Shown here: piece after piece, positions 2,430-38,709 of the stretch
Layout of the letters: each line of letters opens with the position of its first letter
Position numbering within the stretch: the first letter of the stretch is position 1
Assembly (NCBI RefSeq): GCF_027257155.1
Contig: NZ_JAPWDU010000003.1
Location: 620,001 to 684,000, forward strand
Reading direction: 5' to 3'
DNA: 64,000 bases
DNA from: Cerasicoccus sp. TK19100
GTDB lineage: Bacteria; Verrucomicrobiota; Verrucomicrobiia; Opitutales; Cerasicoccaceae
Notes under the pieces: model-generated
Seen by the model: only the letters and a program-made list of their open reading frames with translations
The model's database searches: none
Told to the model about the DNA's origin: nothing
Made by a program: the position numbers and the translations under genes

Positions 2430-4745
2430 CTAGATCTTCATGGCGTCGGGGATGGAATTCTCCCAGACCTTGCGGAGTTCGTTGGTGTCCCACTCGATTG
2501 GGTTGTCCAGATTCGGCGCTTCGATGTGGAGCACGCCATCGTCGTTGGCTTCGCCCAGAATGTCGGCATGGATGTCGTAGCGCTCGGCGTCGTGGACGAC
2601 GTGATCGGCGCGGTTGGCATCGACGGCGAGCAGGATACGGCCTTGGCTTTCGCCGAAGAAAAGGGCGTCCCAGCGATCGATGGGCAGGTCTTCCAGATTG
2701 AGGTCGGCACCGAAGGTCTTGCCCTTGGTGAAGAGCATTTCGCAGAGTGCGACGAGCAGACCACCTTCGGAGATATCGTGCGCGGCGTGGATGCGGCTCT
2801 TTTGGATCTGAATTTGAAGGAAGTCCATCAGCGCGGCCTGCTTTTCGAGGTCCATCGCGGGCGGTTTGCCGGTTTTCAGGTCGTGGAGGACGCGCAGGTA
2901 GGCGCTGCAGCCGAGCTCGTTTGGCACGTCGCCGAGCAGGATGAAGGCTTCGGTGCCTTTCTTGATCTGGCTCGAGGTGATGTATTGGCGGCTGTCGATG
3001 ATGCCAACGACGGAGACGACCGGTGTCGGGTCGATCTTGGCGTCGAGGTTTTCATTGTAGAGGCTGACGTTGCCGCCAACCACGGGCACATCGAAAAAGT
3101 CGCACGTTTCAGCGAGGCCGCGAACGCACTCCTTGAGCATGTAGAAAGACTCGGGCTTGTTCGGGTTGCCGAAATTGAGGTTGTTCGTCATCGCGAGCGG
3201 ACGGGCCCCGGAGCAGGCGAGGTTACGAATGGCCTCGGCGACGGCGATCTTGCCGCCCTCGTAAGGATCGGCCCAGCAGTAGCGGTTGTTGCAGTCGTTG
3301 CTGATGGCGATGTATTTGTCCTTATCCGGACCACCGCAGCGCAGACGCACGACGGCGGCGTCGGACTCGCCGGCATGCTCGATGGTGCTGGTCATGACCA
3401 TCTGGTCGTATTGGCGGTAAATCCACTGCTTGCTGGCGATGCTTGGGTCGGCCAGGAGCTTGGGTAGCGCCTCGAAAACACCGTCTTCGGTCAGGTCGGT
3501 CAGGCTTTCCAGATTCCAGGCCTGCACTTCGTCAAGGTAGGCGGGGCGCTTGGCCTCGGGATTGTTCAGCGGGGCTTGCTCGGTGAGGTCTTGCGCGGGG
3601 ATGCGGGCGACGACTTGGCCGTGCTGCTTGACGACCATGTCCTTGCCGTCAACGACGGAGCCGACCTTGGCGGCGTGGAGGTCCCACTTATCAAAGATTT
3701 TTTCAACTTCCTCTTCGCGGCCAGCCTGCACGATGACGAGCATGCGCTCCTGTGATTCGGAGAGCAGGATTTCGTAAGAATTCATGCCGGTTTCGCGCTG
3801 TGGGACGAGGTCCAGCTCGATCTCGACGCCGGTGTCGCCACGGGCGGCGGTTTCGCAGGTGGAGCAGGTGAGGCCGGCAGCACCCATGTCCTGAATGCCC
3901 ACGACGAGGCCATCGACGGCCATCATTTCGAGGCAGGCTTCCATGAGCAGCTTGCCCATGAAGGGGTCGCCCTTTTGGACTGCCGGGCGGTCGTGGCCAG
4001 ACTCCGAGGAAAGCTCCTTGGAGGCGAAGCTGGCGCCGCCGAGGCCGTCGCGACCGGTCGCCGCGCCGACGTAGTAAACGGGGTTGCCGATGCCGGAGGC
4101 CGCGCCGCGCTTGATCTGGTCATGCTTGAGCACGCCGAGGCAGAGCGCGTTGACGAGCGGGTTGCCCTCGTAGCAATCGTCGAAATAGGTGTCACCGCCG
4201 ATGTTCGGGATGCCCACGCAGTTGCCATAATGGCTGATGCCGTGGACGACGCCGCGCATGATGCGGCGTGAGTCGGCCGAGTCCAGCTTGCCGAAGCGCA
4301 GGGAGTTGGTGAAGAGCACCGGGCGTGCGCCCATGGTGAAAATGTCGCGCAAGATGCCGCCTACGCCGGTCGCTGCGCCCTGGAAGGGCTCGACTGCGCT
4401 GGGGTGGTTGTGGGACTCGATCTTGAAGCAGATTGCGAAATCGTCGCCAATGTCGACCACGCCGGCGTTTTCCTCACCTGCCTTGACGAGGACTTTGTTA
4501 CGGGAGTCTTCGTCGAACTTCTGGGTGGGGAACTGCTTGAGCAGGCGGCGCGAGTTCTTGTAGGAGCAGTGCTCCGACCACATGACGCTGAAGATGCCGA
4601 GCTCGGTCAGGTTGGGCTCGCGGCCGAGGATGGATTTGATGCGCTCGTATTCTTCCGGCGTCAAGCCGTGTTTGTCCACCAGTTCAGGCGTGATGGGCGC
4701 GTTGAGCGTTTCGTCGGGATTTGGCGCGGGTGCTTCGGTGGCCAT
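2430..4745 (-). CDS. purL: Phosphoribosylformylglycinamidine synthase subunit PurL
   Basis: The synthetase subunit of the three-part FGAM synthase converts FGAR to FGAM with ATP and ammonia delivered by PurQ. At 771 residues it matches the small-type PurL (about 720-770) that needs separate PurS and PurQ, both encoded immediately upstream. Recognisable motifs include [14 protein letters not shown] (about 54-67), [13 protein letters not shown] (about 107-119), [10 protein letters not shown] and GGVLVAL-like C-terminal glycine-rich segments (EGGLLVAL). The start ATG at 4743-4745 leaves 105 bp to the purQ stop. Order purS-purQ-purL with the same orientation indicates one operon. Confidence 0.97.
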
Positions 4746-9070: not shown

Positions 9071-10111
9071 TTACCCGCCAGTCATCTGCGAGAGGCGGTT
9101 GAGCGCGGCGGGGCCAATCATGTCGATCGACAGGCTTTCGTGGGCGGCCCCGATTTCGACTGCCGCCTTGGGCATGCCGTAGACGACCGAGCTTTCCTGG
9201 TCCTGCGCAATGGTGCGCCAGCCGCGTTCGCGGAGCAGCTTGAGGCCTTCGGCACCGTCTCGGCCCATGCCGGTGAGGATCATGGCTACGCCTGGCTTGG
9301 GCCAGTGCGAGGCCAGGCTTTTAAAGAAGACATCCACCGAGGGACGGTTGACGAGGTGCGTCGGCTCGACGGTAAACTCAAAGATGCCGCCAGTTCTGAT
9401 GCGCATGTGCGCGTCTTGCCCGGCCATATAAACATTGCCCGGTTGCGGCCGCATGCCGTGCTCGGCGAGCTGCACGGGGAGCTTGCAGCGGGCGTTCAGC
9501 CAATCAGCCATGCCGGGGGCGAACTGCGGGTCGACGTGCTGGACGATCCCTACGATGCCGGGGAAATCCTCATCTAGATTACTCAAAACCGTGGCCAAAG
9601 CCTGTGGCCCGCCGGTGGACGAACCAATCGCGATAAAGGGCGGTTTCTCCAGGCTGTGGGCGGAGGGCATTGGAAAGCCGGGGCGCGTGATGCCGGTGCT
9701 GTGGCTAACCGTTGACTTGCCGGCAATCAGGCCGATGCGTTGAATTTTCTCCAACAACGGTTGCGCGCCATCCATGTTGCCGCCGGGCCCCAAGGTGGGG
9801 GTCACCGTGGCGTCGAGCGCTCCGTGGCCCATGGCTTCGTAAACCAGGTCGCCATTGGTCGTCATGGAGGCTGTCACCACGAGGATGGGCACGGGCGATT
9901 TTTCCATGATCTCACGCGTGGCTTCGGCACCGTTCATGACGGGCATCACGAGGTCCATCAAGACCAGGTCCGGCAAATCGGCAGAGCAATAATCGACAGC
10001 CTGTTGGCCATTTTCCGCCGACCAGGCCACAACGTGTTCACCGCTGGACTCCACCACCCGGCGCAAGCACTCGAGGGCGAGATTCATGTCGTTGACCAAG
10101 CCTATTCGCAT
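9071..10111 (-). CDS. cheB: CheB/WspF-type protein-glutamate methylesterase
   Basis: 346 residues. An N-terminal receiver domain (about 1-120) has phosphoacceptor D53 in LVLMDLVMPVMNG; the catalytic domain (about 158-345) has the triad Ser165 (IAIGSSTGGPQAL), His192 (IVQHVDPQF) and Asp285 (TGMGRDGAEG). It removes methyl groups from MCP glutamates, opposing CheR. The opening MRIGLVNDMNLALECLRRVV matches WspF-type regulators, where N-D replaces the usual D-D acidic pair. It is the last gene of a Wsp-ordered array but is cut off from cheA by the oppositely oriented gene 10361-14740, so it must have its own promoter. Confidence 0.93.
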   Translation of the reverse strand: MRIGLVNDMNLALECLRRVVESSGEHVVAWSAENGQQAVDYCSADLPDLVLMDLVMPVMNGAEATREIMEKSPVPILVVTASMTTNGDLVYEAMGHGALDATVTPTLGPGGNMDGAQPLLEKIQRIGLIAGKSTVSHSTGITRPGFPMPSAHSLEKPPFIAIGSSTGGPQALATVLSNLDEDFPGIVGIVQHVDPQFAPGMADWLNARCKLPVQLAEHGMRPQPGNVYMAGQDAHMRIRTGGIFEFTVEPTHLVNRPSVDVFFKSLASHWPKPGVAMILTGMGRDGAEGLKLLRERGWRTIAQDQESSVVYGMPKAAVEIGAAHESLSIDMIGPAALNRLSQMTGG

Positions 10112-10360
10112 GAGCAGGAAATTTCTACGGTCTTTTTTACCAAGGAGTTAACCCCGCGCGAACTTTTAATGCAGTAAAGTTGGGGATACTGGAACGTCTT
10201 CGTTGCTCTGGGGCGGCACGACGGCGTTTTTAACACGAAGTGGCTGGTGGCGAACTAGTGAAGACTTATTTAGAGGCAAATGGGGCACATGTCTCTATCG
10301 CACTAAGCATCTCTGTCATGACTTTAGTCCCCTAAATTAACTTGTCTATTGAGTGAATTC

Positions 10361-13300
10361 ATGTATTACCTTTATTCTATGTTTTCCTACGCAACTGCGA
10401 GACTCTGCTCTCTATTACTAGCTCTATTACTATCAACACTATCACTCTCTGCGGCGAGTCCCTATGCCGGTGATTATTTGGGGACGCTCTCCATTAATGG
10501 CACTGCAAGCGGACGTCTTTTCCTCGCGATTGATAGCGATGGTAACTTCTCGGATTATTCGGAGTTACTTACGGGAACCACGAGCGATGCGGGCGTTATC
10601 ACCTTTGACGCCAACGACTTCGGGTTCACCACTGCCACGATTGACGGGAATTTCTCCTTTGTGGCCACGGGTTCGGCTAACACCCTGAGCTATCGTCTTG
10701 AGGGTGAGAAGTCGGCAGCAGTGTTTTCCAGCCCCTCGCTGGACGATGTGCTGACGCAGACTAACCCACTTAATTACTTTGCCGGTGCTACAGACTTAAT
10801 CTGGGACGGTTCGCAATTCGTTGCCCTGACGAGCCAATCTATCGCAGTATCTAACGACGGTATCAACTGGGAGGTCAGCTCGATTGGCCTGACCGGTGAC
10901 TTTACCCGCATTGCTTATGGTAACGGCGTGTATGTGATCATTGGTGACGGTAATGTAGTCGCCACTTCCACCGATTTGGACACTTGGACGCTTCGCAGCT
11001 CAGGCATCCCTGGTTTAGCGCAGCAGAACATTGAGGAAGTGGTATTCTTCAATGGCCGGTTCTGGGCGGTGAACATTCAATACGCTTACATCAGCTCGGC
11101 GGATGGCGTTAGCTGGACGCAGGAAACACCTTTTCAGGGTGGCTTCGGTGGCTATTCCCGCATGGAAGTCATCAACGGCCAGTTGGTCGTCGCGACTACA
11201 CAGAATGGCAACAGCGCCAACACCGTTTTTTATACATCTGCCAATGGCCGTGATTTTACTGGACCGACTGCCGGGGTAAACATTGGCGGCACACCAGTTT
11301 CGATTGTGGCAGGCAATGGCGTAATCCTCGCGGCCTCCACGGGCGGGCTGGCGATTTCAACGGATGGCGTCACGTTTTCGCGCATAACATCGTCGCTCCC
11401 CGCATCCTATCCGCGGGCGATGGTGTTTGACGGCACGAAGTTTATCGCTGCCTGGTATAACAGCTTTCACACGTCAACAGATGGCGTCAGCTGGACGGCC
11501 AGCACCGGCCCCGGCGGAGACATGGAGGCCATGGCAGTCAACGGTTCGACGGTAGTCGCTGTGGGGGAGGAGCCCTTTCACTCCACTGACGGCGGTGCCT
11601 CCTGGAATGCCACCTCGACTAATGCACTAGGCAGCACGCAAGCTTATGAAGTGGTCGCGGGTAACGGCGTCTTCCTGTTCCAAGCCGACGGCTTGAATAC
11701 CTTTCGCTCGACCGATGGTGAAACGTTTACCGACATCGGGCTGCAACTGGACGGCATCGGCTACGGCAACGGAATCTTTGCGGCCTATGACCGGGTCAAC
11801 GACAAGCTGGTGTATTCCGTGGACGGTCTGGAGTGGTTTGACGCCATCGTGGCCGTGGATCCGCTTTACGTTTCCTATGGTAATGTTGTCTTCAACGGCG
11901 AAGTCTTTTACAAGAATGGCCTCGTCTCTACCGACGGCATTAACTGGGACTGGGCAGAGGACGTATCGAGCTTTGGCAGTGATGTCCGCCGCGGCGGTAA
12001 CGGTGAGTTGATCAACTACGGCAGCGGCCCGACCTACCAAATATCTCTGGATAACGGCAAAACCTTCCAAGGGCGTAACCTCAGCAACCAGCAGGCCCAC
12101 GCCGCTGCTTATGGCAACGGACTCTGGGTCATGGGCTTCAGCAGTGGTTACTACGCATACGGGCCAAGCTTGGATTCGTTGGCCTCCGGTCGCTACAGCG
12201 AAGGCGTCGAGACTCCCAGCATTCGCTCCATGAATTTCCTGGGCGACGTCTTTTATGGTTCTTTGGAAGACAATCGCGTGATCCTCTCAACCGACGGCAA
12301 AAACTGGGTCCCGAAAACCTTAGGTGCCAATGTGCGCTTGGTGAGCTCCGCGCAGTCCGGCCCATTGGGTATCTTCACGGGGGACGACGCAACGGTCTTC
12401 ACCGTCGACCTGGGCGGCTCTTTCCTGCGGCCCTTCATCGTCGAGCAACCGGTTGGTGTTGCTGCGGATGAGTTGGATGTCGTCACGTTGACGGCCTCAG
12501 TGGGCAATAGTGCTGGTGCCACTTATATTTGGACCAAGGACGGCGTGCCGGTCGCAAACCTCCTCAACGTCTCTGGTGCTGATACCGCCAGCATTACCTT
12601 CGACGGCATTCGCGCTGACCAGGCTGGCGACTATCGCCTGATCGTAGTCGGTCCTGATGGTGGTGCGATTACCGAGGTGGCTACCGTGACGGTTGAGCCG
12701 CTGGCAGTCTTCACGACTCAACCGCAATCCGCCACGGCAACCGACGGCGGCAGCGTCACTTTTACTTCAGAAGTCGACGACGAAACCGCGACCTTCCAGT
12801 GGTATAAAAACGGCGTCGAGCTGCCCGGCGAAACCGATAGCTCGCTTTCGCTCAGCGGCCTGACCACCGCCAGTGCTGGCATCTACACCGTAGTGGCGAC
12901 GAATGTGATTGGTCCGCAGGAGAGCTTGCCCGCCGCCTTGAGCATCAGCGCCGCCTCGGGACCGACTTTGAATACCAGCTTCATGGCCAACGTGCCGGAT
13001 GATGCGCCGTTTAATAACACGCGCGACACCATGTATTCCTTTGCTGAGCAAGGGGACAAACTCATCGTTGGCGGCTATTTCCAAGTCACGAGCAGTCCGC
13101 GCACCTCCAGCCTGATGCGACTCAATGCAGATGGAACGCGGGACACCAGCTATGTTGGGGCTCAGATTGAATACAGCGGCCTAGGGATCGTTGAGGAGAT
13201 GTGTTTTGACGATCAAGGCCGCCTTTATATCGGCGGCAGCTATCAGTTTCCCGGTCAGGGCGTGGGCGTCTATGACACGAATGGAAATCTCCTTAAGACA

Positions 13301-14740
13301 TTCAACACGTATTACCGGGTGGTGGATTATAAACTGCTTTCTTACGGCACGCGCATGGTAGTCGTAGCCAATATGTATCAGTTTAACAGCTACTTCGCTC
13401 GGGGGGGTATCGCGGAAATTAACACCGAAACACTCACGCACAACACCAGCTTCACTAGCAAGGTGAATACTGCGTTGGGTAATTTCTATCCGCTGGGCGC
13501 TGCGATTCAGTCTAACGGTAAACTCGTTTTCTTTGGTTACCATGGCACCAGCAGTAGCAGCCCGATGAAGCTCATGCGCCTCAATACGGACGGCACCAAG
13601 GACACCTCGTTTACCGAGTCCACCTTCACCGGTTCAGGAACCCTGGGCGGCTATGAACTGGTGCTCGATGACGACGAGAACATCTTCGTGCTCACCAATA
13701 ACGTAACGCACGTGGGCGGCGTTGAGGTGGCTTACTCCCGCGTGCAGAAGTTTAGCCCCAATGGCGTGCTCGACCCAACCTTCGGTGCCGCACAAAATGG
13801 CGACACGACTTTCTATCGTCAAATGGCTTATGTCGGCGACCGCACCCTCGTATTGGGCTATGATGAGATCACCGCGATCAGCACTGAAGACGGCAGCACG
13901 CTTCCGATCAACTTCGGAACCGGCGTGCCATCCGCGCAATACCTCGGCGCGATTCAGGGCATTCAGCGCGTTTCGGACGGCTTCATGGTCGGGGGTAAGT
14001 TCTCCAGCTTCGATGGCCAGCCGACCAACGGCATCGCCTACTACCAGATCCCGACCTCGACGGGTCCATCGCTGCCGCTGACCATCGTTCAGCAGCCGGA
14101 GAGCGTGGTCGATCGCCTTGGTCAACCTGGCCGCCTGGTGGTTGCTGCGACCGGCTCTGGTCTGCGCTATGAGTGGTATCACGACGGCGTGCTCGTCGAC
14201 GGTGAGTTCTCCAACCAGCTCCAAACCGATGCGCTGACTGCCGGTGATTCGGGCCTCTACAAGGTCATTGTTTACGACAAGGACGACAACTTTGTGGAGA
14301 GTAATGAAGTTAGTGTCAGCATTCCCGACGCGCCGGTTGCCTCAAGCAGCTTTGCCGATTGGGCATTATACAACCTGCCTCCTGGCAGCGATTTCACCCT
14401 CGACGGCGACTTGAATAACAACGGTCAACCTGACGGCCTGGACTTCATTTTCGGCTCCGGCGTTCGCCCAACAACGGGCACGCAAACGGGCGCGCAGCTG
14501 GGCATCGGTGGCGATGAAGAATACCTGACCTTCAGCGTGCGTCGCCGCCGTGGAGCGACTGGCTTGAACATTTCGCCCAAGGCGGCCCCGACACTAGCGG
14601 GATTAGCCAATGGTGGCTCCAATGTGCAGCAGGTGTCCTCCGCGATCGATGGCGAGTTCGAAGTCATTACCTATCGCGCCACGTTCTCCATCGACGCTAC
14701 GGGTGCGGCCTTCTACATGGTGACCGTCGCCGAAGACTAA
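10361..14740 (+). CDS. Giant secreted protein with BNR-like, Ig-like and delta-60 repeat domains
   Basis: About 1459 residues from the ATG at 10361 (ATG 10379 and TTG 10349 are alternatives). A signal peptide (LCSLLLALLLSTLSLSAASP) comes first. Residues about 140-690 carry repeated strand-turn motifs of the form STDGxxW / SNDGINWEV / TDGVSWTAS, as in BNR/Ycf48-like beta-propellers. Two Ig-like domains follow (about 695-780 and 790-865, with YKNGVELPG), then delta-60/DUF5122-type repeats (LNADGTRDTSY, LNTDGTKDTSF, FSPNGVLDPTF), a third Ig-like domain (YEWYHDGVLVDG) and a C-terminal block with a calcium-binding-like DLNNNGQPDGLDF. No sorting signal of the PEP-CTERM kind is seen. It splits the chemosensory cluster. 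A surface or adhesin role is inferred only. Confidence 0.85.
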   Translation: MYYLYSMFSYATARLCSLLLALLLSTLSLSAASPYAGDYLGTLSINGTASGRLFLAIDSDGNFSDYSELLTGTTSDAGVITFDANDFGFTTATIDGNFSFVATGSANTLSYRLEGEKSAAVFSSPSLDDVLTQTNPLNYFAGATDLIWDGSQFVALTSQSIAVSNDGINWEVSSIGLTGDFTRIAYGNGVYVIIGDGNVVATSTDLDTWTLRSSGIPGLAQQNIEEVVFFNGRFWAVNIQYAYISSADGVSWTQETPFQGGFGGYSRMEVINGQLVVATTQNGNSANTVFYTSANGRDFTGPTAGVNIGGTPVSIVAGNGVILAASTGGLAISTDGVTFSRITSSLPASYPRAMVFDGTKFIAAWYNSFHTSTDGVSWTASTGPGGDMEAMAVNGSTVVAVGEEPFHSTDGGASWNATSTNALGSTQAYEVVAGNGVFLFQADGLNTFRSTDGETFTDIGLQLDGIGYGNGIFAAYDRVNDKLVYSVDGLEWFDAIVAVDPLYVSYGNVVFNGEVFYKNGLVSTDGINWDWAEDVSSFGSDVRRGGNGELINYGSGPTYQISLDNGKTFQGRNLSNQQAHAAAYGNGLWVMGFSSGYYAYGPSLDSLASGRYSEGVETPSIRSMNFLGDVFYGSLEDNRVILSTDGKNWVPKTLGANVRLVSSAQSGPLGIFTGDDATVFTVDLGGSFLRPFIVEQPVGVAADELDVVTLTASVGNSAGATYIWTKDGVPVANLLNVSGADTASITFDGIRADQAGDYRLIVVGPDGGAITEVATVTVEPLAVFTTQPQSATATDGGSVTFTSEVDDETATFQWYKNGVELPGETDSSLSLSGLTTASAGIYTVVATNVIGPQESLPAALSISAASGPTLNTSFMANVPDDAPFNNTRDTMYSFAEQGDKLIVGGYFQVTSSPRTSSLMRLNADGTRDTSYVGAQIEYSGLGIVEEMCFDDQGRLYIGGSYQFPGQGVGVYDTNGNLLKTFNTYYRVVDYKLLSYGTRMVVVANMYQFNSYFARGGIAEINTETLTHNTSFTSKVNTALGNFYPLGAAIQSNGKLVFFGYHGTSSSSPMKLMRLNTDGTKDTSFTESTFTGSGTLGGYELVLDDDENIFVLTNNVTHVGGVEVAYSRVQKFSPNGVLDPTFGAAQNGDTTFYRQMAYVGDRTLVLGYDEITAISTEDGSTLPINFGTGVPSAQYLGAIQGIQRVSDGFMVGGKFSSFDGQPTNGIAYYQIPTSTGPSLPLTIVQQPESVVDRLGQPGRLVVAATGSGLRYEWYHDGVLVDGEFSNQLQTDALTAGDSGLYKVIVYDKDDNFVESNEVSVSIPDAPVASSSFADWALYNLPPGSDFTLDGDLNNNGQPDGLDFIFGSGVRPTTGTQTGAQLGIGGDEEYLTFSVRRRRGATGLNISPKAAPTLAGLANGGSNVQQVSSAIDGEFEVITYRATFSIDATGAAFYMVTVAED

Positions 14741-14741
14741 A

Positions 14742-14756
14742 CTTTGCGATACAAAG
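14742..14756. repeat. CTTTG-CGATA-CAAAG palindrome at the stop codon
   Basis: A degenerate member of the ACTTTGC...GCAAAGT family; five-base perfect arms begin two bases after the TAA of the giant secreted protein. Other copies are at 27680, 31765, 32067, 33726, 44603, 48589, 48706 and 56383. Confidence 0.6.
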
Positions 14757-14765
14757 CTTCTCAAC

Positions 14766-14802
14766 GCGCGCCGATAGCCAACTGGTTGTCGGCGCGCTTT
14801 TT
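14766..14802 (+). terminator. Terminator of the giant secreted protein gene
   Basis: Nine-base perfect stem GCGCGCCGA / TCGGCGCGC (14766-14774 and 14789-14797) followed by five T. It reaches the stop codon of the convergent cheA gene, so it may protect both transcripts from read-through. Confidence 0.85.
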
Positions 14803-17629
14803 AGTCGATCAAGTCCCGGACGGCTTGGATAAAGGTGTCGTCCTGGAAGGAGCTCTTGGTCAGGTAGTAGTCGGCTCCGGCTTCGAGGCCTTTGATGCGG
14901 TCTTCCTCGCGGTCTTTGTAGGAGACGACGATCACGGGGAGATTTTCCAGGCGGTTGTCGCTGCGGATCTTGGAAACGAACTCATAGCCGTTCATGCGGG
15001 GCATGTCGATGTCGCTCACGACGAGGTCGAACTCGCCCAGGCGCACGGCGTTCCAGCCATCGGCACCGTCCACGGCAACCTCGACGGCGTAGCCCGCATT
15101 TTCGAGGAGCTGGCGCTCGGTCTCGCGCACGGTGATGGAGTCGTCGACCACCAGAATGCGCTTGCGGTTGGATGCCGCCGCGATTGCTTCGCCACGCTTG
15201 GTCTCGAGGCGCGCGCCGCCGGAGAGCAGCTTATCAATCGAGGCAATGAGGTCCTCGACATCGAGGATCAGAATTGGCTCACCGTTCTCCATGAGCGAGG
15301 CGGAGCTAACGCCCGGCACCTTGCCCAAACGCCGGTCCAGCGGGCGGACGACCAGGTCGGCTTCGCCAATTAAATTATCCACTTCGATGCCGTAAAGTTG
15401 GTTGCGATCATTGACGACCACGATGTCCAGATGCGGCGTGGTGGTGTTGACCGCACCGGCAAAGCCGAGCGCCGAACGCGCGGGTGCCAGGCCGACGTTT
15501 TGCCCCTCCAGCTCGAAATATTGGCGGTTTTCGACCATTTTCAGGTCTTTGTAATCCATGCGCAAAGTGCGGGCGATGCGGCTCAGCGGGAAGGCATAGG
15601 GCTCGCCGTCGATGTCGGCCAGCAGTGCGCGTATGACGGATCGCGTGATCGGCACCTGCAAATGGAAGGTCGTGCCCGCGCCAACGGCAGTCTTGATCCG
15701 CGCCTGCCCGCCGATCTGCTGCATGAGCGTCTGCACGACGTCCAGGCCGACGCCGCGGCCGGAAATTTCCGTAACCTTACCTGCGGTGGAAAAGCCCGGC
15801 AGAAAAAGAAACTCCAGCACTTCGTCCTCACTCATTTGGGCGACCATCTCGTCGGTCGCAAACTGCTTTTCAACGACCTTCTTGCGGAGCTTATCCACGT
15901 CGATCCCGCGACCGTCGTCCTTGACTTCGACGACGAGCATGCCGGCGCTGTGGCGGGCACTGAGAATGAGTGAGCCGGTGGCATCCTTGCCGGTGGCGGT
16001 GCGGTCTTCCGGCATTTCGAGGCCGTGGTCGCAGGCGTTGCGGAGGATGTGGTTGAGCGGCGCTTCGAGGCGCTCCAGGATGTCGCGGTCGACCGGTGTT
16101 TCCTTGCCCTCGATGTCGAAGCGGACCTGCTTGCCCAGCGTGCGCGCGACATCGCGGACCATACGCGGGAAGCCCTGCACGCCGTCGTTAAACGGGCGCA
16201 TCCGGCTGGCCAGCACCTCGCGGTATAGCCGGTCGGAGAGCAGGGTGTTGCGGCGGGCAAAGGCGTCAAAATGCTCCAACTGCTCACGGACAAGCGTCAG
16301 CGCCCGCTCGGCGGATTGGCGGACTTGCTCGAAGTGAACGCGGGACTCCGGCTCCAGCTCGATGCGGTCCAGGATGCGGTCACTGCTGTTGATTCGGCTG
16401 CTCAGCTCACTCTGCGCTTCCTTGAGGCGGAGCAGGGTGTCGCGGAAATTTTCCAACTGCCCGGTTTCGACGACGGTTTCCGCCGCGAGGCCCATGAGGC
16501 GGTTGAGGCTGTCGGCGGACACGCGGACTACGCTGTCGGCCTTTTTCTCGTTGGTGGTGGCGGCGGGGGCTGGCTTGGCGCGTTCGCGGCGGGCGGGCTT
16601 GGTGGAAGGTGCTTTGGCGGGCTCGGCCGATTTCTCCGGCTCGGGCGTCGGCTCCAGTGCGGCGGGCGCGGGTTCCGGTTCAGGCTCCGGCGCGGCGCTA
16701 AGGAGGGTTTCTCCGGCCAGCGTGCGCTGCAGGTCGTCCATGATCGACGAATAATCCTCAGCATGCTGCTCGGGCCAGTCAGCGAGTTCGGCATCGGGGG
16801 CGGCGGAAAATTGCCGCAGGTAATCGGCGGCCCGGTCGAAGTTGGCCACGTGCTCAGGCGCGAGCTTGATGTCGCCGCGGATCGCAGCGTTAAAGGAATC
16901 TTCGACGAGCTTGGCCATCTCGACGGCGGCCATGAGGCCCACGATGCGGGCGGCACCTTTCATCGAGTGGGCGGCGCGCATCAGCGGCTCCATTGCCTTT
17001 TCGTCGGCGGAAGCGGGGTCGAAATCTTTCAGCGCGTCCTTCAGCGCGCCAACTTGCTGCTCGGCCTCCATGCGGTAGAGGTCGATCATGGAAAGGTCGG
17101 GCGTTTGCTTGGGCGGCTTGATGGTGCGGGCCGGCTTGGCCGGGGCCTTCGCTTGTGCTGGCGGGGTGGCTGTTTTGGCTGGCTCCGGCGTGGGTTCGGC
17201 TTGGGGCGGAGCTTCGGGAATGCCGCCCGCGGCCTGGATTTGGGCGAGGCCCTTGCAAACTTCATCCGCCCAGGCAGCATTATCCTTGAGCCATGGGCCC
17301 ATCTTCTCCTCGGACTGCTTTCCGGATTCGACGAGGATATCGACGGCGTTAAAGAGCCAGTCGAGCTGATCCGAGCCGAGCGTCACCTCGCCCTTGCCCG
17401 CGGCGACCATGAGGTCTTCCAAGTTGTGCGCGACCTTGCCCACCATGTCGAGGCCCACGATTCGCGCGGCCCCCTTGAGCGAGTGCGCGGCGCGCATGAG
17501 GCCGTCGATGTCCGCCGAGGCTGGATCGGATTCCCACGCCACGAGCCCTTCATTGAGCGCAGCGCCCTGCGTTTCGACCTCCTGCTGGTACAGGTCGAGC
17601 ATCGGGAAACTATCGGGGACGTCGCTCAC
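14801..17629 (-). CDS. cheA: WspE-like hybrid CheA histidine kinase with two HPt domains and a receiver
   Basis: 942 residues from a GTG at 17627-17629, which overlaps the upstream cheW stop as GTGA; longer reading upstream is out-of-frame cheW. Order: HPt1 with H49 (MRAAHSLKGAARIVGL), HPt2 with H221 (MRAAHSMKGAARIVGL), a Pro/Ala/Glu-rich linker (about 310-365), dimerisation helix, HATPase (N-box HILRNACDHGLE near 528-538, G boxes DDGRGID and GRGVGLD), CheW-like domain (about 660-800), and a C-terminal receiver with D873 (VVSDIDMPRMNG). CheA fused to a receiver after CheW is the WspE/PilL/ChpA-like layout. The two near-identical HPt motifs suggest an internal duplication. Confidence 0.95.
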   Translation of the reverse strand: MSDVPDSFPMLDLYQQEVETQGAALNEGLVAWESDPASADIDGLMRAAHSLKGAARIVGLDMVGKVAHNLEDLMVAAGKGEVTLGSDQLDWLFNAVDILVESGKQSEEKMGPWLKDNAAWADEVCKGLAQIQAAGGIPEAPPQAEPTPEPAKTATPPAQAKAPAKPARTIKPPKQTPDLSMIDLYRMEAEQQVGALKDALKDFDPASADEKAMEPLMRAAHSMKGAARIVGLMAAVEMAKLVEDSFNAAIRGDIKLAPEHVANFDRAADYLRQFSAAPDAELADWPEQHAEDYSSIMDDLQRTLAGETLLSAAPEPEPEPAPAALEPTPEPEKSAEPAKAPSTKPARRERAKPAPAATTNEKKADSVVRVSADSLNRLMGLAAETVVETGQLENFRDTLLRLKEAQSELSSRINSSDRILDRIELEPESRVHFEQVRQSAERALTLVREQLEHFDAFARRNTLLSDRLYREVLASRMRPFNDGVQGFPRMVRDVARTLGKQVRFDIEGKETPVDRDILERLEAPLNHILRNACDHGLEMPEDRTATGKDATGSLILSARHSAGMLVVEVKDDGRGIDVDKLRKKVVEKQFATDEMVAQMSEDEVLEFLFLPGFSTAGKVTEISGRGVGLDVVQTLMQQIGGQARIKTAVGAGTTFHLQVPITRSVIRALLADIDGEPYAFPLSRIARTLRMDYKDLKMVENRQYFELEGQNVGLAPARSALGFAGAVNTTTPHLDIVVVNDRNQLYGIEVDNLIGEADLVVRPLDRRLGKVPGVSSASLMENGEPILILDVEDLIASIDKLLSGGARLETKRGEAIAAASNRKRILVVDDSITVRETERQLLENAGYAVEVAVDGADGWNAVRLGEFDLVVSDIDMPRMNGYEFVSKIRSDNRLENLPVIVVSYKDREEDRIKGLEAGADYYLTKSSFQDDTFIQAVRDLID

Positions 17630-18219
17630 AGGTATTGCTTTTTGAGGCTGTGGAAAATGAGTTCGTGGTCGAGGAGGCCGACTTTCTGTTCGCGCAAAAT
17701 GAAGAGGCCGCGGGTAAAGGTGGCCATGGCTTTGCTCACCGTCACAGGGGATTCCTGCAGCAGGCATTTCTCCAACGCATGGACGCCATAGGCCTCGTCG
17801 GCGCGGAAGACAAACGGCCCGTCCGGCCCCTGGATCACGATCATGCGCGGGTGCACGCGGCGGGAAAGAATGGTTTCGTCGCCACTTTTTTCCAGCGAAA
17901 GCAAGGCGTGCAGGGAGACGCAAAGCTGCAGCTCGCCACGGACATTGACGAGGCCGCGCAGGACGTCGTTGGTGCGCTGCGGAATGCGGTGGATCGTGGC
18001 ATCGGCGGTGATCTCCTTGACGATGGAGGCCTCCAGCGCGAGCCATTCGTCGAACAGGCGGAAGACCAGCACGCCCTGGGTTTCGCGTTCGTGCTCGTCC
18101 TCTTTTTCGCGCAGGCGGTTCTGCCAATCGGCGAGGTAGCCTTCCGGCGGTTCGCGGTCGAGGAGGCGCAGCATGGCTTCGCGGTCCTGATTCACCATTT
18201 CGAAATCTTCGTCGCTCAT
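17626..18219 (-). CDS. cheW: CheW-like adaptor, WspD position
   Basis: 197 residues: a charged, helical N-terminal extension of about 50 residues (LADWQNRLREKEDEHERE) followed by a CheW domain (VLVFRLFDEWLALEASIVKEI... LRGLVNVRGELQLCVSLHALL). CheW scaffolds couple receptors to CheA. It overlaps the stop of cheR by four bases (ATGA) and the start of cheA by four (GTGA), so translation is coupled. Its place between CheR-TPR and hybrid CheA equals that of WspD. Confidence 0.9.
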   Translation of the reverse strand: MSDEDFEMVNQDREAMLRLLDREPPEGYLADWQNRLREKEDEHERETQGVLVFRLFDEWLALEASIVKEITADATIHRIPQRTNDVLRGLVNVRGELQLCVSLHALLSLEKSGDETILSRRVHPRMIVIQGPDGPFVFRADEAYGVHALEKCLLQESPVTVSKAMATFTRGLFILREQKVGLLDHELIFHSLKKQYL

Positions 18220-19460
18220 GCCTTCACCTCCTTGGCGTTTTCAGCGTTGCGGGCGCGCTTGCGCAGGCGTTCGGCCCCGGCGGAGTCGCCCCGGCGTTCG
18301 GCCAGCAGAGCCAGGTGAAACAGCGACTGAGCGTGGCGCGCATCCAGATAGACCGCGCGGCGCAGCAGGGGCTCGGCTTTTTTATAATCGCGCAAGCCTA
18401 TGTAAATTTCCCCCAGTGTGCAGAAGGCCTCAGCGGAAGGCGGCGTTTGGTTAATCAGCTCACTGGCGATTTTTTCGGCCTCGTTTAGCCGTCCGCCATT
18501 CGCCAACTCCCGTGCCTCGGCCCAGAGTTGTTCCGCGCTGGGCTTGGTCGCCTCGGTCGGTTTGCTGACGACCAGTGCCTGCTTGCGTGGAAGCGGTTTG
18601 GCGATGCGCGTGTTTTTCTTAATGGCGGGCAGGGGGACTTTGGGCGCGGGTTCGTTGGCGGCTTCGCGGCGCTCAAAGCAAAAGGCCCCCGCCGGGCCAA
18701 CGGGTTTCATGGCCTGCGTAATCGTGCCCAGGGCATCGGCGTGGCCGGAGAAAATGAGGCCGTCTGGCTCGAGGCCGCGCATTAGGCCGGCTACGGCGCG
18801 CGCACGGGAATCGCTGCAAAAATAGATCAGCACATTACGGCAGAAAATCGCGTGAAAGGGGCGTTCGCCCATCAGGAAATCAGGCGCGAGCAAATTGCGC
18901 TGGCGGAAGGTGACGTGCTCGCGGACCTCGTCGATCACGCGGCGTTTGCCGTCTTCGGCGTCGCGAAAATAGGCGTGATAGGGCTCCGCCGTGTTGCCCC
19001 GGAAGGCCATGGGGCGAAAGACGCCTTGTTGTGCTTCTTGGAGAAAGCGGTTGCTCAAGTCGCCGGCTTCCACGTGGAAACTATGGGGCGCAAAGCCGGA
19101 GTGGAGCAGCGAAATGGCGATCGAGTAGGGCTCCTGTCCAGTGGCGCAGGGCACGCTGAGGATGCGCAGCTGCTCGCCGGGGTGCTTAGGCCGCCAGACC
19201 TTGCGGGCCCATTCGGTCAGGAAATCGAAGGGTTTGCCGTCACGGAAAAACCACGACTCGGGCACAAGCAGCTCGTCGGCAAAGGCGAGAAATTCTTCCT
19301 GAGAGCGCAGCAGGTGCGAGAAATACTCCTCCAGATCGAAGACACCGCTGGCCTCCATGCGCCGCCGCACGACGCTGTTCAAGCTGCCCCCGCGAAAGAC
19401 GCTTTCGTCGAGGCCAAACTTTTCGCGCAAGTCGCGCGTGATGCGGAGCGGCAGTTTCAC
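18216..19460 (-). CDS. cheR: CheR methyltransferase with C-terminal TPR repeats (WspC-like)
   Basis: 414 residues from a GTG at 19458-19460 that overlaps the preceding cheW stop as GTGA. CheR N-terminal helical domain (about 1-70), then the SAM-binding domain with SVPCATGQEPYSIAISLL and FCRNVLIYF. After a basic linker come TPR motifs (about 310-405: AEQLWAEARELANGGRLNEA, AFCTLGEIYIGLRDYKKAEP, SLFHLALLAERRGDSAGAER). CheR with C-terminal TPRs is typical of WspC and differs from the flagellar CheR. It methylates glutamates on the two receptors encoded upstream. Confidence 0.93.
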   Translation of the reverse strand: MKLPLRITRDLREKFGLDESVFRGGSLNSVVRRRMEASGVFDLEEYFSHLLRSQEEFLAFADELLVPESWFFRDGKPFDFLTEWARKVWRPKHPGEQLRILSVPCATGQEPYSIAISLLHSGFAPHSFHVEAGDLSNRFLQEAQQGVFRPMAFRGNTAEPYHAYFRDAEDGKRRVIDEVREHVTFRQRNLLAPDFLMGERPFHAIFCRNVLIYFCSDSRARAVAGLMRGLEPDGLIFSGHADALGTITQAMKPVGPAGAFCFERREAANEPAPKVPLPAIKKNTRIAKPLPRKQALVVSKPTEATKPSAEQLWAEARELANGGRLNEAEKIASELINQTPPSAEAFCTLGEIYIGLRDYKKAEPLLRRAVYLDARHAQSLFHLALLAERRGDSAGAERLRKRARNAENAKEVKA

Positions 19461-19927
19461 GGAGCGGGCGTTGAGTCGTTGTTAAAGAGCAGGTCGCGGA
19501 CCTCGGCTGAAAGGATGTCGGTGGGCTCGACGCATTGCACGATTTCGCCGTCTTCAGTTGTGAAGATGCGGCCCAGGTATTTGGCATCGGGTGGGTTCAC
19601 GCCGCCGTCGGACAAGAAATTATCCGGCACTTCGAGGGTCTCGGTGACGCGCTCCGCCCAAAGGCCGAGCAGCGCGGTGCCGCCGCTTTTCTTCGGGTAG
19701 GAAATGAGCAAATAGCGTGCGCTGAGGCCAGGCTTGGTCGGCTGCTTCAAGATTAGCTGGCCGAGGTCGATCACGGGCACGATTTGGCCGCGATACTCGA
19801 AGCGACCGCGAATGTAATCCGGCGCGCCTGGCGTCGGCTTGAGTGGCAGGGCGGGGATGACGATTTCGACGCGTTCGGCGTCGATGGCGAAACTCTGGTC
19901 GCCCAAATGGAACATGACGGTGAGCAT
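19457..19927 (-). CDS. cheW: CheW-like adaptor, WspB position
   Basis: 156 residues, almost only a CheW domain: MLTVMFHLGDQSFAIDAERV, PDYIRGRFEYRGQIVPVIDL, then TALLGLWAERVTETLEV. It starts three bases after the stop of the upstream receptor gene and overlaps cheR by four bases. Two CheW-like genes flanking cheR reproduce the Wsp gene order (WspB, WspC, WspD). Confidence 0.9.
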   Translation of the reverse strand: MLTVMFHLGDQSFAIDAERVEIVIPALPLKPTPGAPDYIRGRFEYRGQIVPVIDLGQLILKQPTKPGLSARYLLISYPKKSGGTALLGLWAERVTETLEVPDNFLSDGGVNPPDAKYLGRIFTTEDGEIVQCVEPTDILSAEVRDLLFNNDSTPAP

Positions 19928-19930
19928 TGC

Positions 19931-22249
19931 CTACTTTTTGTCGTCCTTTCTGGGCGGGAATGGTGCGCGGGTGGGGAAGGGCGCATTGGTTGGCAGCTTT
20001 TTCTTGGCGGGGATTTTTATCTCCGGCTGCGGGGCCCTCTTTTCCGGTGCGGGCTGGGGCTGGCCACCGGCGCGCATGGGGAAGGGCATGTTGGTCATGC
20101 CGGTCGAGGCCTTGTCTTTCACCTTGAAGCGGGATACCTCGCGGCGCAGGCCGTTGACCGCGGCGTGCAGGGCGCGGGTGGCTTCGTCAAATTCCTTGAG
20201 GGACTCCGCGGTGCGGGCCGCACCATCGCGCAGGGTCGTCATGGCCTCGCTGATCTGCTGGGCACCCTGAGTCTGCGCTTCCATACCCTCGCTGACGGAG
20301 GCAAAGCGCGGGGTGACGGTCTGCACGCCGGTAATGATCTCATCCAGTCGCTCGCCCAGTTCGCCCACCTCGGTTACGCCGTTGCGGACGGATTCGTTGA
20401 ACTTGTCCATTTCCATGACGCCCGAGCTAACGGCGGCCTGCATCTCGTTGACCATGCTGTCGATGTTGACGGTGGCGTTGGCGGTCTGATGGGCGAGGCG
20501 GCGGATTTCGCGCGCGACGACGGAGAAGCCCTGGCCGTGCTCGCCGGCTTTTTCCGCTTCGATCGCGGCATTGAGCGAGAGCAGGTTGGTCTGCTCGGAG
20601 ACTTTGCCGATGGTCGTGACGACCTTGGTAATGTTATTCGCCTTCTCGCTGATTACGGCGAGCTTGGCCGCGATGGAGCTCGTGGCCGAGGAAAGGTTGT
20701 CCATTGAGGCGGACATGTCCATGAGCTGGCGGCGGCCGTCCTCGGCGATCGAGCCGGTCTCATTGGCTGAGCTGGCCACATCGCGCATGGTGTCGAGCAG
20801 TTCGCGGGAGGTGGCGGAAATCTGGTTTACCGCTGAGGCGATTTGCTGAGTGGAGGCACCGAAATCCTGAATCGCCACTTCCTGGCTTTTCGAGGCACCG
20901 CTGATGCGGGTGGCGGTGGAGACGAGCTGGATGGTGGAATTTTTAACCTGAAGCAGGAGGTTGTTCAGGTTTTCGACCATGAGCTCGATGGCCTTCAGGA
21001 GTTGGCCGGTCTCGTCGTTGGTGACGATTTCCACCTCGTGCGTCAGGTTGCCATCGGCGACGGCTTGGGCGAGGTCATTGGCGTGCTTGATCCGCGCGCT
21101 GAAGCGGTTGGCGAAAATCACAATAATGAGCAGCACGGTCATGATGCCAATGAGGCCTACGATGATTGCGCGCTCAATGTCTCCCCAGGTGGGCCCGGTA
21201 ATGACGCTTTCGGGCACGGTCATGGCGATGCGCCAGCCGCCGGTTGGGATGTAGGCGCTGGCCAGGTAGGACTCCTCGCCGCTTAGCGGGTCTTCGAAAA
21301 GCATGGGGGGGCTGTTCTGGCGCGTTTGTGAAATGCGGTCGAAGAGTGTTCGGTAAACTTGGTCGACACCGTCATCTTGCAGGCGAACGCCGCGCTCGGG
21401 GTTAAACTCCAGCTTGCCATCGGGGCTTTTTTCAAAGAGGTCGAGCATCACACGGCCGGGGCCGCCATCATTGCGCTGCACGTAAAAGCGGTCAATTGGC
21501 ATGGTGCGATACTCATCGCCGAGGGTGGTGGCGATGATGCGGCCGCGGCTGCTGATCAGGTAGAGCTGCGCGCGGGGGTAGGGCTTGAGGCCCTGCAGGG
21601 TGTCGCTCAGCGTGTCGAGGGCGCGGTCGACGCCGGTTACGCCCTGGAAGCGCCCGTTGATGACGATGGGCGACATCTGTTCGACGATCAAATTGAGGTC
21701 GTTGTAAATGTAGGGCTCGGTGACGAGGTAGCGCAGGTCGGAATCCTGGCTGAGCGCCTGCCGCACGCCGCGATAGTAGAGGCTGCTCTCCATGTCCACG
21801 AGCACCTCGGACTTGATGCGGCCGCCGTCGGTGAGGTCGCGGAAAATGTAGGGAATGAACCGGCCGTCTTCGCTGACCCAGTCGGGTGGGCTGTCAAAGC
21901 TGGCGAGAAATTCAGCATCTTGCCCGTCGGCGTTGGGCTCGTAGCCAATGGACACGCCGACGAATTCCGGGTTGGCCTCCAGAATGCGGCGCAGCAGGGA
22001 GACCGACTCCTTGCGCAGGCCGAACATACCGCTTTCCTGGGCATCGGCGATGGTGCGCGAGACGGTGACGGCTTCGAGGTTGTCCTGTTCGATGCGCAGG
22101 GCGATTTTGATGAGGTCGTCGCTCATCAGCTCCTGGTCTTTCTCGAGCATGCGGGTGTGGCCGCGGTAAATGTTATACACCGCCACACTGCCGGCCGTTA
22201 GGATAACCGGCAGCAGCACGTAAACGAGTATCTTCGTGCGTAGGCTCAT
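19931..22249 (-). CDS. Methyl-accepting chemotaxis protein with periplasmic dCache-like domain
   Basis: 772 residues. Transmembrane segment 1 is at about 7-27, a large periplasmic domain follows (about 28-355) with a Cache-like end ([20 protein letters not shown] and [19 protein letters not shown]), transmembrane segment 2 at about 357-378 ([19 protein letters not shown]), HAMP at about 380-435, and the signalling hairpin with [20 protein letters not shown] at its tip. The C-terminus carries a Pro/Lys-rich tail. It overlaps the stop of the second receptor by four bases (ATGA at 22246-22249), so both receptors are expected in the same array. Confidence 0.93.
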
Positions 22250-24504
22250 GATGATGGTTGGTTGGGTGCCGGGACATCGCCCGCGTCTTCATCGGTTTTA
22301 AAACGGGCAATGCCGCCATTGACGGCGGTCACCGCAAGATTGAGTTTCGTCGCCGCGTCCTGGAAGCCTTCCAGTGCATTTTTCGTCTGCAAGGCGGCGG
22401 CGTTGAGTGAGGCGACGGCTTCGGAAATTTGCTCGGCGCCGCTGGTCTGCGCTTCCATGCCTTCCTGCACGGATTCAAAACGCGGCGTGAGCGCCTCGAC
22501 ATCGGTGATGATGTGCTCCATCTGGCCACTGAGGCGGTTGACGGTGTCCACCCCGGCGCGGACGGCTTCGTTAAACTTGTCCATCTCCATGACGCCTGCG
22601 CTGACGCTGGATTGCATCTCTTTGACCATTTGCTCGATGTCCAGCGTGGCGACGGCGGTCTGGTCGGCCAGGCGACGGATTTCGCGCGCGACCACCGCAA
22701 AGCCCAAGCCGAACTCGCCGGCTTTCTCGGCCTCGATTGCGGCGTTGAGCGAGAGCAGATTGGTCTGGTCGGCCACCTTGGCAATCGTGGTGACGACGTT
22801 ATTAATGTTGTTCGCCTTCTCAGCGATGATGGAAAGCTTACCCGAGACGGATTGTGTGGCCAGCGACAGGTCGTCCACGCCTTCGCGCATGGCGTCCAGG
22901 TGGCTGCGGCCTTCGCCGGCGACCTTGGCCGTTTGGCGTGCGCTCTTGGTGGCCTTTTTCATGGTGCCGGTCAGCTCCTGCGAGGTGGTGGAAATCTCCT
23001 TCACCGCCGCCGCGATTTGCGTGCTGGATGAGCCGAAGCCTTGCGCGGCGTCCAGCTGTTGCCCGGCGTTGGTGCCAATGGAAATAGCCGAGTCGCTGAG
23101 CTGGCTGGAGGCACCCTTCATCTCGACGACCAGTTGCTGCAGGTTGCCCAGCATTTGCTGGATGGCGCGGAAGAGGTCGCCGGTTTCGTCCTTGGCCTTG
23201 GAGAGGTCGCGATGATCGACGCCGTGGCAGCGGGCGTCCATTTCGTGCTGTGCCCTGGCGAGCTCACCATCGGCGACATGCTTGGCGATGCTGGTCAGGA
23301 ACGATATCGGCCTGGCAATGATGCCGCCCAGCCACATCGCCAGTAGGGTGATGACGATCAGCAAAATGACGGCACCGACCAGGGTGGCGAAGAAGATCTC
23401 GTCAAAGACTTTTTCGATCTGTTTGTGGGGCTCGGCAAAATCCTCCGCCACTGCGGTAACGCCCAGAATCCAGTCCCACGGTTTGAAGTAAACGTAGGTA
23501 ATTTCCAGCTTGTGCGGCTCGCCCTTGAGGTCGTCCCAAATGACGGTGCGCGAGCCGGTGGCACCGGTGCGTTCGTTGGCTTTGGCGAGGGCGTCCTGTC
23601 GAATTTGCTCGAAGAATTTCTGTCCCTTGGCGTCGATGATTTGGTTGATCTTCTCGCCGTGGGGAAACTCCTTGCCGGTCAAAATGAACTCTCCCGCCCG
23701 CGCGGCATCCTTGCCGTACATGACCCAGCTGTAGCCATTGGGGCCGATCTCGGCATCGTAGATGGCTTGCTTGAGCGAAGACGCCTCATCGCGACGCACG
23801 CCCACATAAAGCATGCCGACGACGTAGCCCGTGTCGTTGAAAATTGGCCGGTAGGCGGTGAGATACCAGCGGTTGACCACGAAGGCCGGGCCTTCGAAAA
23901 CGGCGCGCTCATTGACGACACGTTGGATGACGGGGTTCGGCTCGCCGTCTTCACCCGTGGCGGGGATGAAGGTGCCAACGGCGCGATGCCCTTCGGCGTT
24001 TTCCACATTGGTCGCAACGCGGAGCATGTCGCCCTCGGCGTTGATACGTTGGAAAATCGTGCAGGTGCCGCCCACGAGGTCTTTAACCTGGTCGACCACG
24101 GGCGACCGCGTGCCAAAGCTGTCATTGGGCTCAATTGGCGTCTCCCCAATCAGCATCTGGGGCAGCTCGACAGCGCGGGTTTCCTTAGTGTATTGGTTGG
24201 TCGCCTGCCAGCGGACGGAGTCCTCGCTAAAGCTGACGCCACCCATGTCCTCCAGTACGTAGTCGGCCACGCCGAGCGTCCTCGTTACCTGCTTTTGCGT
24301 GAGGTTGTTGACGACCCGGCAGAGCCCGTAAATATCGAGCACCGCGTGGTGCAAATTGTCACTAATGATTGCGTCGATTTCACCCTCAATCACCCGCGTG
24401 CTCTTGTGATCCTGCGTAGCAATAAGGATCGCCAGGCCGAGCACCGGTAGAAGGGCGGAAAAGATCGCCAGACCCGCAACCTTGTGTCGCAAAAGTAGCT
24501 TCAT
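22246..24504 (-). CDS. Methyl-accepting chemotaxis protein with Cache_3/Cache_2-like sensor
   Basis: 752 residues, first gene of the array. Transmembrane 1 at about 10-29; the periplasmic part (30-365) has the Cache_3-Cache_2 pattern: [50 protein letters not shown] and, near the membrane, [16 protein letters not shown]. Transmembrane 2 lies near 370-392, then HAMP and a signalling domain with [20 protein letters not shown]. The two receptors share their signalling halves but have different sensors, so the system probably integrates two signals. The start is the ATG at 24502-24504. Confidence 0.93.
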
Positions 24505-38607: not shown

Positions 38608-38709
38608 GCCAACACGGTTTTCCGAAGCGCCCGAAAGGCAACTGAATTTTTTAGGCGGCATTATACGCCTTCTGCTTGTCGTTGTTTATGGACGTGCTTC
38701 AATGGGCGA

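Follow-up and report, generated by a model that had tools for sequence, protein, structure and literature searches.

Which output does a Wsp-type chemosensory array drive when WspR is not encoded with it? The question is raised by a 64,000-nucleotide stretch of the genome of Cerasicoccus sp. TK19100 (Verrucomicrobiota; contig NZ_JAPWDU010000003.1, positions 620,001 to 684,000; hereafter the window), in which seven chemosensory genes stand in the order of the wsp clusters of proteobacteria and the diguanylate cyclase WspR is missing. In the survey of Kessler et al. 2021 (PMC8552884), all 794 wsp clusters carry WspR or WspH, and all belong to beta- or gammaproteobacteria. Our analysis points, with good confidence, to a Wsp-type array whose terminal output would be a protein phosphatase feeding a partner switch, free of cyclic di-GMP (c-di-GMP). 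This reading is drawn from sequence: the parts are present, catalytic residues are conserved in them, they co-occur, and in other genomes they are physically linked.

Domains of the window proteins were assigned with Pfam, and the array genes, all on the reverse strand, are as follows (MCP, methyl-accepting chemotaxis protein):

22246..24504, - strand: chemoreceptor in the WspA position, 752 aa, Cache_3-Cache_2 sensor and MCP signalling domain (Pfam E 4.1e-75 and 1.3e-33)
19931..22249, - strand: second chemoreceptor, 772 aa, dCache-type sensor, HAMP and MCP signalling domain (Pfam MCPsignal 2.3e-33, MCP-like_PDC_1 3.7e-6)
19457..19927, - strand: CheW in the WspB position, 156 aa (Pfam CheW 6.6e-21)
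18216..19460, - strand: CheR with C-terminal TPR in the WspC position, 414 aa (Pfam CheR 1.1e-38, TPR_8 9e-6)
17626..18219, - strand: CheW in the WspD position, 197 aa (Pfam CheW 7.3e-18)
14801..17629, - strand: CheA in the WspE position, 942 aa, two Hpt domains, kinase core, CheW domain and C-terminal receiver (Pfam; GTG start at 17629)
9071..10111, - strand: CheB in the WspF position, 346 aa, receiver and methylesterase (Pfam)

Both receptors have Cache-type sensor domains, and both Hpt domains of CheA hold a histidine-containing AAHS(L/M)KGAARIVG stretch. In the run that begins with the first MCP and ends with CheA, the spacings are -4, 3, -4, -4 and -4 bases, so that the first six genes look like one operon; the overlaps of four bases or smaller proposed for this whole run hold for four junctions but not for that between the second MCP and CheW, which is a 3-base gap. 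CheA and CheB are separated by 4689 bases.

Compared with the annotated wsp cluster of Azoarcus sp. KH32C, whose last gene encodes a diguanylate cyclase of 347 aa corresponding to WspR, the CheW, CheR, CheW, CheA and CheB proteins are 35-49% identical (CheA 47% over 768 aa, CheB 49%), and the first receptor is 50% identical to the Azoarcus wsp MCP over 299 aa of the signalling part. An unannotated cluster of Burkholderia stagnalis has the same gene order, with 31-48% identity. The match in order and identity to proteobacterial wsp clusters is far beyond chance, and together with the Pfam assignments it bears out the Wsp order (MCP, MCP, CheW, CheR-TPR, CheW, CheA-receiver, CheB) that the original prediction had read from the letters. 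By the criteria of PMC8552884, a Wsp system is recognised by wspA-F synteny, at least 30% identity and a WspR or WspH output. In the window wspA to wspE are consecutive and wspF is displaced by an inserted gene, an insertion that is absent from five relatives (G003 and G006-G009); identities exceed the threshold against the two comparators, Azoarcus and B. stagnalis. Because the candidate output combines a WspR-type receiver with a PP2C phosphatase, and is thus neither WspR nor WspH, the array is Wsp-type but belongs to neither the R- nor the H-system. By domain content it also has what marks the alternative cellular functions (ACF) chemosensory class, namely a CheR-TPR and a multidomain response regulator, here the receiver-PP2C protein (REC-PP2C). 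The CheW family gave three matches in the genome (5.07 Mb, 13 contigs, 97% complete), all of them inside the array, and by this search neither a second chemosensory system nor a second Wsp cluster with WspR was found.

One proposed check had been to look in the complete genome for a receiver-output gene that co-occurs with the array, and such a gene was found outside the window. It encodes the REC-PP2C protein of 402 aa (G000:C2:506481-507686; receiver 2e-18, SpoIIE 1e-39). In one genome of the same order (G018), the gene directly after cheA encodes a receiver with a SpoIIE phosphatase; with this array-linked protein as query, all ten family genomes, that of Cerasicoccus sp. TK19100 included, yielded one full-length match apiece (58-62% identity), the next family matches being partial and at 26-35%. 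Against solved structures the receiver of REC-PP2C matched that of WspR (3bre 6e-49, 3i5a 3.5e-47), with PleD next at 2e-15 and only a weak match to RssB (3eq2, 4.8e-8). It is 59% identical to the Azoarcus WspR receiver, compared with 28-29% for the receivers of CheA, CheB and the one GGDEF protein that the genome was found to encode. Receiver residues D33, D34, D78 and K130 and phosphatase residues D200, D218, D340, D392 and D393 were invariant in all 25 aligned REC-PP2C proteins; by analogy, we take the former to mark a phosphorylatable receiver and the invariant aspartates of the latter to bind metal. The predicted structure of a homolog (locus L235) consists of a receiver, a single 49-residue helix and the PP2C domain (mean pLDDT 93), and its best match among solved structures was Pseudomonas aeruginosa RssB (3f7a), followed by WspR. 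WspR is activated through a helical stalk, and by analogy the coupling of receiver to phosphatase in REC-PP2C may be comparable.

Co-occurrence was examined in 177 genomes of the order and 387 of the phylum, with at most 4 to 10 candidates scored per genome, absences being lower bounds. Array genomes were those with a CheA core match at or below 2.4e-94 in the order sample (n = 25; next match 1.7e-72) and at 7.8e-96 or better in the phylum sample (n = 29). Among the matches listed, full-length REC-PP2C was present in 22 of the 25 order array genomes versus 4 of the 152 others, and in 23 of the 29 phylum array genomes versus 3 of the 358 others; in the phylum all 23 stood at 49% identity or more, a level reached, again among the matches listed, by array genomes only. 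In the remaining three order array genomes (G017, G043 and G057) the gene that directly follows cheB joins a WspR-type receiver to a hybrid kinase; a WspR-type receiver protein was found in 25/25.

Physical linkage is seen in other genomes. In 15 of the 23 phylum array genomes that hold REC-PP2C, its gene lies directly after cheB, in the position of wspR (L192-L205, fourteen loci, and L229, whose cheA lies on a different contig); it is not adjacent in the other eight. Neighbourhoods were compared for 24 orthologous arrays. Within the family REC-PP2C does not adjoin the array; in Cerasicoccus sp. TK19100 the two are unlinked. The 80 best REC-PP2C matches (named loci, most from metagenome-assembled genomes) bear titles of Planctomycetota, Desulfobacteraceae/Deltaproteobacteria, Acidobacteria, Ignavibacteria, Chloroflexi, Chlamydiales, Elusimicrobia, Lentisphaerae and others. 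In 57 of the 80, REC-PP2C has within 10 kb a cheA or cheB akin to that of the window. With other thresholds, under which 57 of the 79 loci with an open frame were counted (L286, a match near a contig end, has no REC-PP2C open frame), these genes were immediately upstream on the same strand in 29 cases, elsewhere on the same strand in 22 and on the other strand in 6, some of the last at only 31-41% identity and possibly of other CheA types. Twenty-two named loci had no cheA or cheB within reach, several of them on short contigs.

Several variants of the array and its output were observed alongside. In a family of the order labelled f17, seven of ten arrays have no CheR or CheB nearby (L051, L052, L053, L056, L057, L059 and L061), and their genomes keep REC-PP2C; these arrays retain MCP, CheW and CheA and may represent an adaptation-free version. 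In G508 (L201 2165-4231), REC-PP2C is followed by a 267-aa protein whose sole Pfam domain is a WspR-like receiver, which suggests that one array may feed two regulators. REC-PP2C also occurs in two metagenome-assembled genomes titled Chlamydiales and Parachlamydiaceae (L308 and L255), clustered in L308 with CheW, CheR, CheW, CheA and CheB. In G001 (L019 15906-19329) a WecG-like gene and a CHASE2 adenylate/guanylate cyclase come after the array CheA on the same strand; as a candidate output this cyclase was set aside, being seen at one of the ten family loci. G003 and G006 carry, in addition, a second and distant CheA at 28-35%.

The phosphatase is accompanied by candidate partners. An RsbW-like kinase gene (about 140-180 aa) stands beside REC-PP2C in 10/10 family loci, the product in Cerasicoccus sp. 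TK19100 matching HATPase_c_2 at 9.6e-24, and also in 10/10 f17 loci. A STAS protein (2.8e-23) is encoded at G000:C3:714226-714558, about 70 kb from the array, and its ortholog was found in all ten family genomes as one match each at 80-99%, the next STAS matches reaching at most 34%; in four family genomes the STAS gene is directly upstream of the first MCP. The stretch SSAGLRV is conserved in 11 aligned STAS proteins, and by analogy with SpoIIAA we take its serine to be the phosphosite. Three components of a PP2C/RsbW/STAS partner switch were found: a PP2C with conserved residues and a receiver, an RsbW-type kinase, and a STAS protein with a conserved serine. Array, phosphatase, kinase and STAS occur together in 5 of the 80 named loci (L235, L243, L247, L290 and L293; L247 is the same contig as L193). 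In L235 (bacterium SM23_31), MCP, CheW, CheR, CheW, CheA, CheB, REC-PP2C, kinase and STAS are consecutive on one strand, CheA as two consecutive open frames.

We propose that receptors with Cache sensors would control CheA, which would phosphorylate CheB for adaptation and, in trans, the WspR-type receiver of the 402-aa REC-PP2C. Phosphorylation of the receiver would change the activity of the PP2C domain toward the SpoIIAA-like STAS protein, and the RsbW-like serine kinase encoded beside the phosphatase would re-phosphorylate STAS, the partner switch taking the place of c-di-GMP synthesis. The phosphotransfer, the direction of control and STAS as the substrate are what we infer from these parts. 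The target of the switch is a more speculative matter and might be envelope polysaccharide synthesis or export. Polysaccharide export is suggested by relatives in which STAS or the array adjoins a WbaP-like sugar transferase and a Wzm/Wzt-type exporter: STAS does so in G005 (L216), STAS and array together in G006-G009, and the array itself adjoins homologs of these genes in G018. No sigma factor was found among the annotated neighbours of the REC-PP2C and STAS loci, where only some neighbours are annotated. As an observation apart, nine of ten f17 loci (L217-L226) have two open reading frames matching ABC ATPases after REC-PP2C and the kinase, the first of them in L217 being an oligopeptide-type ATPase.

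Several observations weigh against this circuit. Array, REC-PP2C and STAS lie at three places in the Cerasicoccus genome, and their pairing there rests on orthology. Four array-less genomes of the order hold distant full-length REC-PP2C (40-47%), as do three of the phylum (42-43%), and the phosphatase part alone was matched in six array-less genomes (G024 of the order sample; G235, G401, G457, G475 and G507 of the phylum sample); another kinase can therefore use such a protein. The Fisher co-occurrence counts ignore shared ancestry; a rough table at family level (p 0.002) is disregarded, since family f14 is positive in it owing to a genome that lacks the array. The kinase is not beside REC-PP2C in 2 of the 22 order array genomes that have REC-PP2C (G014 and G018), and it was seen at only 2 of 17 phylum REC-PP2C loci, with STAS too at 1 of 17, so that in G014, G018 and 15 of the 17 phylum loci it must be encoded elsewhere or be absent; among the named loci, RsbW is near REC-PP2C in 11/80 and STAS in 6/80. 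In Cerasicoccus sp. TK19100 a HAMP-HisKA-REC kinase is encoded beside STAS and could feed the same switch. Finally, what follows cheB in the array genome G362 is no more than a receiver standing alone. This receiver (L209 7524-7952, 142 aa) is 51% identical to the hybrid-kinase receiver of L055 and is a possible single-domain output.

The strongest alternative to a phosphatase output is that no dedicated output is left, the receiver of CheA and CheB being the sole targets and REC-PP2C being driven by another kinase. The separation of REC-PP2C from the array throughout the family, the existence of array-less REC-PP2C proteins and the hybrid kinase adjoining STAS would all fit such an arrangement. 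We nevertheless consider it unlikely, given that CheA is conserved in 10/10 family genomes, that every order array genome has a WspR-type receiver protein, and that the f17 genomes whose arrays lack nearby CheR and CheB still keep REC-PP2C.

A c-di-GMP output after all would require that the single GGDEF protein found in the genome, a REC-GGDEF-HD-GYP protein at G000:C3:349567, be the response regulator of the array. It has a receiver, the GGDEF letters and an HD-GYP-type domain. Its receiver, though, is 28% identical to that of Azoarcus WspR, no more than those of CheA and CheB (29%), its gene is about 280 kb from the array, and GGDEF is absent from the nine other family genomes, all of which keep the array. 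In the order sample GGDEF was not associated with the array either (4/25 array genomes versus 25/152 others). This candidate was rejected on receiver type and distribution (1/10 family genomes), and a c-di-GMP output appears very improbable. The absence of WspR was correctly predicted for the window; the single GGDEF protein found in the genome has a receiver that is not WspR-like.

Between cheA and cheB, as had been predicted, lies an oppositely oriented gene for a protein of 1459 residues, followed by a hairpin on the side of cheA:

10361..14740, + strand: giant secreted-type protein, 1459 aa from ATG, Ig-like and delta-60/DUF5122 repeats (Pfam); the longest frame starts at 10349
14766..14797, + strand: terminator-like hairpin between the giant gene and cheA, 14 pairs with a T tail (pattern scan; longest stem listed)

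Terminator-like sites in the region numbered 21 against 17.7 expected, which places the class at chance level. The proposed link of the giant protein to the array failed the test of co-occurrence in relatives: it is present in 2/10 family genomes, the array (by its CheA core) in 10/10, and G005 gave partial weak matches to it only. In G003, of the same genus (L017), 159 bases separate cheA from cheB, with nothing inserted, and in G006, G007, G008 and G009 (g4) cheA and cheB overlap by 4 bases; CheB was not found within 20-40 kb beyond cheA in G001, G004 and G005. The only other holder, G002, has the giant gene divergent from cheB on contig C15 and the array on C2, so that in both holders it adjoins cheB. 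Since the array is present without it in other family genomes, the giant gene is dispensable for the array, and we judge it to be an insertion between cheA and cheB outside the signalling circuit. That the giant protein is the controlled output, for instance an adhesin regulated by the array, is the least probable explanation of all: its place inside the cluster, its secreted-type sequence and its divergence from cheB in G002 are outweighed by its not being found in eight of the ten family array genomes (the G005 matches apart), by the adjacency of cheA and cheB in five genomes without it and by its orientation opposite to the array. The suggestion that the array works through another output thus stands insofar as the output is not WspR, and falls as regards the giant protein.

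Returning to the phosphatase output, its place in the wider array family was examined in a CheA core tree of 78 rows, to which the 80 named loci contributed 23 (stop codons in its stretch kept L269 out of alignment A2, and long branches were flagged for L015, L016, L060 and L062). The PP2C labels of family and f17 rows are based on genome content and not on linkage, and labels for hybrid kinase and lone receiver were checked. Wsp-type CheAs, that of the window among them, formed one clade (100/100) apart from eight other CheAs. Within it, eight rows, whose output is a hybrid kinase in six, GGDEF in one and a lone receiver in one, formed a clade (100/97) that holds Azoarcus WspE, and all 62 PP2C-labelled rows, the window included, fell outside this clade. 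Output labels required 4 changes, the minimum for five groups, compared with 15.6 when shuffled; the tree holds one GGDEF row only, and the root within the Wsp-type clade is not resolved. Tentatively, rather than a proteobacterial c-di-GMP device, Wsp may be one offshoot of a widely distributed family of arrays. The chief output of that family, and possibly its ancestral one, would be a PP2C partner switch, a single kind of receiver having been re-fused to a phosphatase (Verrucomicrobiota, Planctomycetota, Thermodesulfobacteriota, Acidobacteriota, Ignavibacteriota, Chloroflexota, Chlamydiota and others), a hybrid kinase and a diguanylate cyclase.

Among known systems, P. aeruginosa RssB shares the arrangement of receiver, linker and PP2C and is the best full-length fold match (3f7a) to the REC-PP2C model, but the sequence match of the REC-PP2C receiver to it is weak where that to WspR is strong, and to our knowledge RssB is not linked to an array. 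SypE of Vibrio fischeri includes a kinase within the one polypeptide and takes its input from sensor kinases, not from an array. Che1 of Shewanella oneidensis, a system of class F7, has CheD and CheY, unlike the array described here, and its output is RpoS availability. Both nevertheless offer parallels: SypE is a response regulator that acts on the STAS protein SypA and controls polysaccharide-dependent biofilm (PMC4517449, PMC8256260), and Che1 with CrsR/CrsA joins a chemosensory cluster to a partner switch and an anti-sigma factor antagonist (PMC9855816), such antagonists or switches occurring in other chemosensory clusters as well (PMC9855816, PMC7184735). The Pseudomonas-type Wsp R-system is alike in gene order, CheR-TPR, two CheW, CheA with receiver, CheB and an output receiver of WspR type; here, by contrast, the output enzyme is PP2C and not GGDEF, it is encoded in trans, the sensors are of Cache type and the host lies outside beta/gammaproteobacteria. 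In the H-system of Burkholderia a WspR-like receiver sits on a c-di-GMP-independent, non-GGDEF output (PMC8552884); WspH, unlike the protein here, is a REC-hybrid histidine kinase and not a phosphatase. Some relatives of this genome (L054, L055 and L058) likewise have a REC-hybrid kinase after cheB. A 2012 survey of CheR-TPR clusters (PMC3447774) counts fusions of REC to protein phosphatases, PP2C among them, as an output type, which for these ACF clusters gives the category only, as opposed to the Wsp-type circuit with kinase and STAS described here. No Wsp array with a PP2C output was described in the hits listed from the open-licence literature, the supplements of PMC3447774 lying outside that scope. 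REC-phosphatase and partner-switch outputs are thus known kinds, and the combination of a Wsp array with a WspR-receiver phosphatase, kinase and STAS across phyla is new within the literature searched.

Elsewhere in the region, a 179-aa gene upstream of the first MCP had no Pfam match and 26% identity to one neighbour gene in G003; a promoter scan of the region was close to chance, the Rfam search returned nothing, and PADLOC returned nothing for ten other window proteins. PurL, PurE and PurK genes lie near the array (2430-4745, 1091-1648 and 37468-38661), and purine biosynthesis genes are repeatedly close to it in two families (the window; L020 2731-3009; L052 7761-8693; L061 11002-12180), with PurS adjoining CheB in g4 and SAICAR synthetase adjoining an MCP in several f17 loci. 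Genes resembling those for chondroitinase B and heparinase II/III (39803-41977 and 54220-56382) are consistent with polysaccharide degradation.

A receiver so similar to that of WspR can earn its protein the name 'WspR', and with it an interpretation in terms of c-di-GMP or surface sensing. A study of Planctomycetes reports WspR and WspE-WspRF (PMC6461901), and several of the Planctomycetota loci found here carry the phosphatase form. If the circuit proposed for Cerasicoccus holds, a third Wsp output would exist in several further phyla, as against the exclusivity to beta/gammaproteobacteria stated in PMC8552884, and the one receiver, plugged into three different enzymes, would amount to a natural experiment on the exchange of array outputs.

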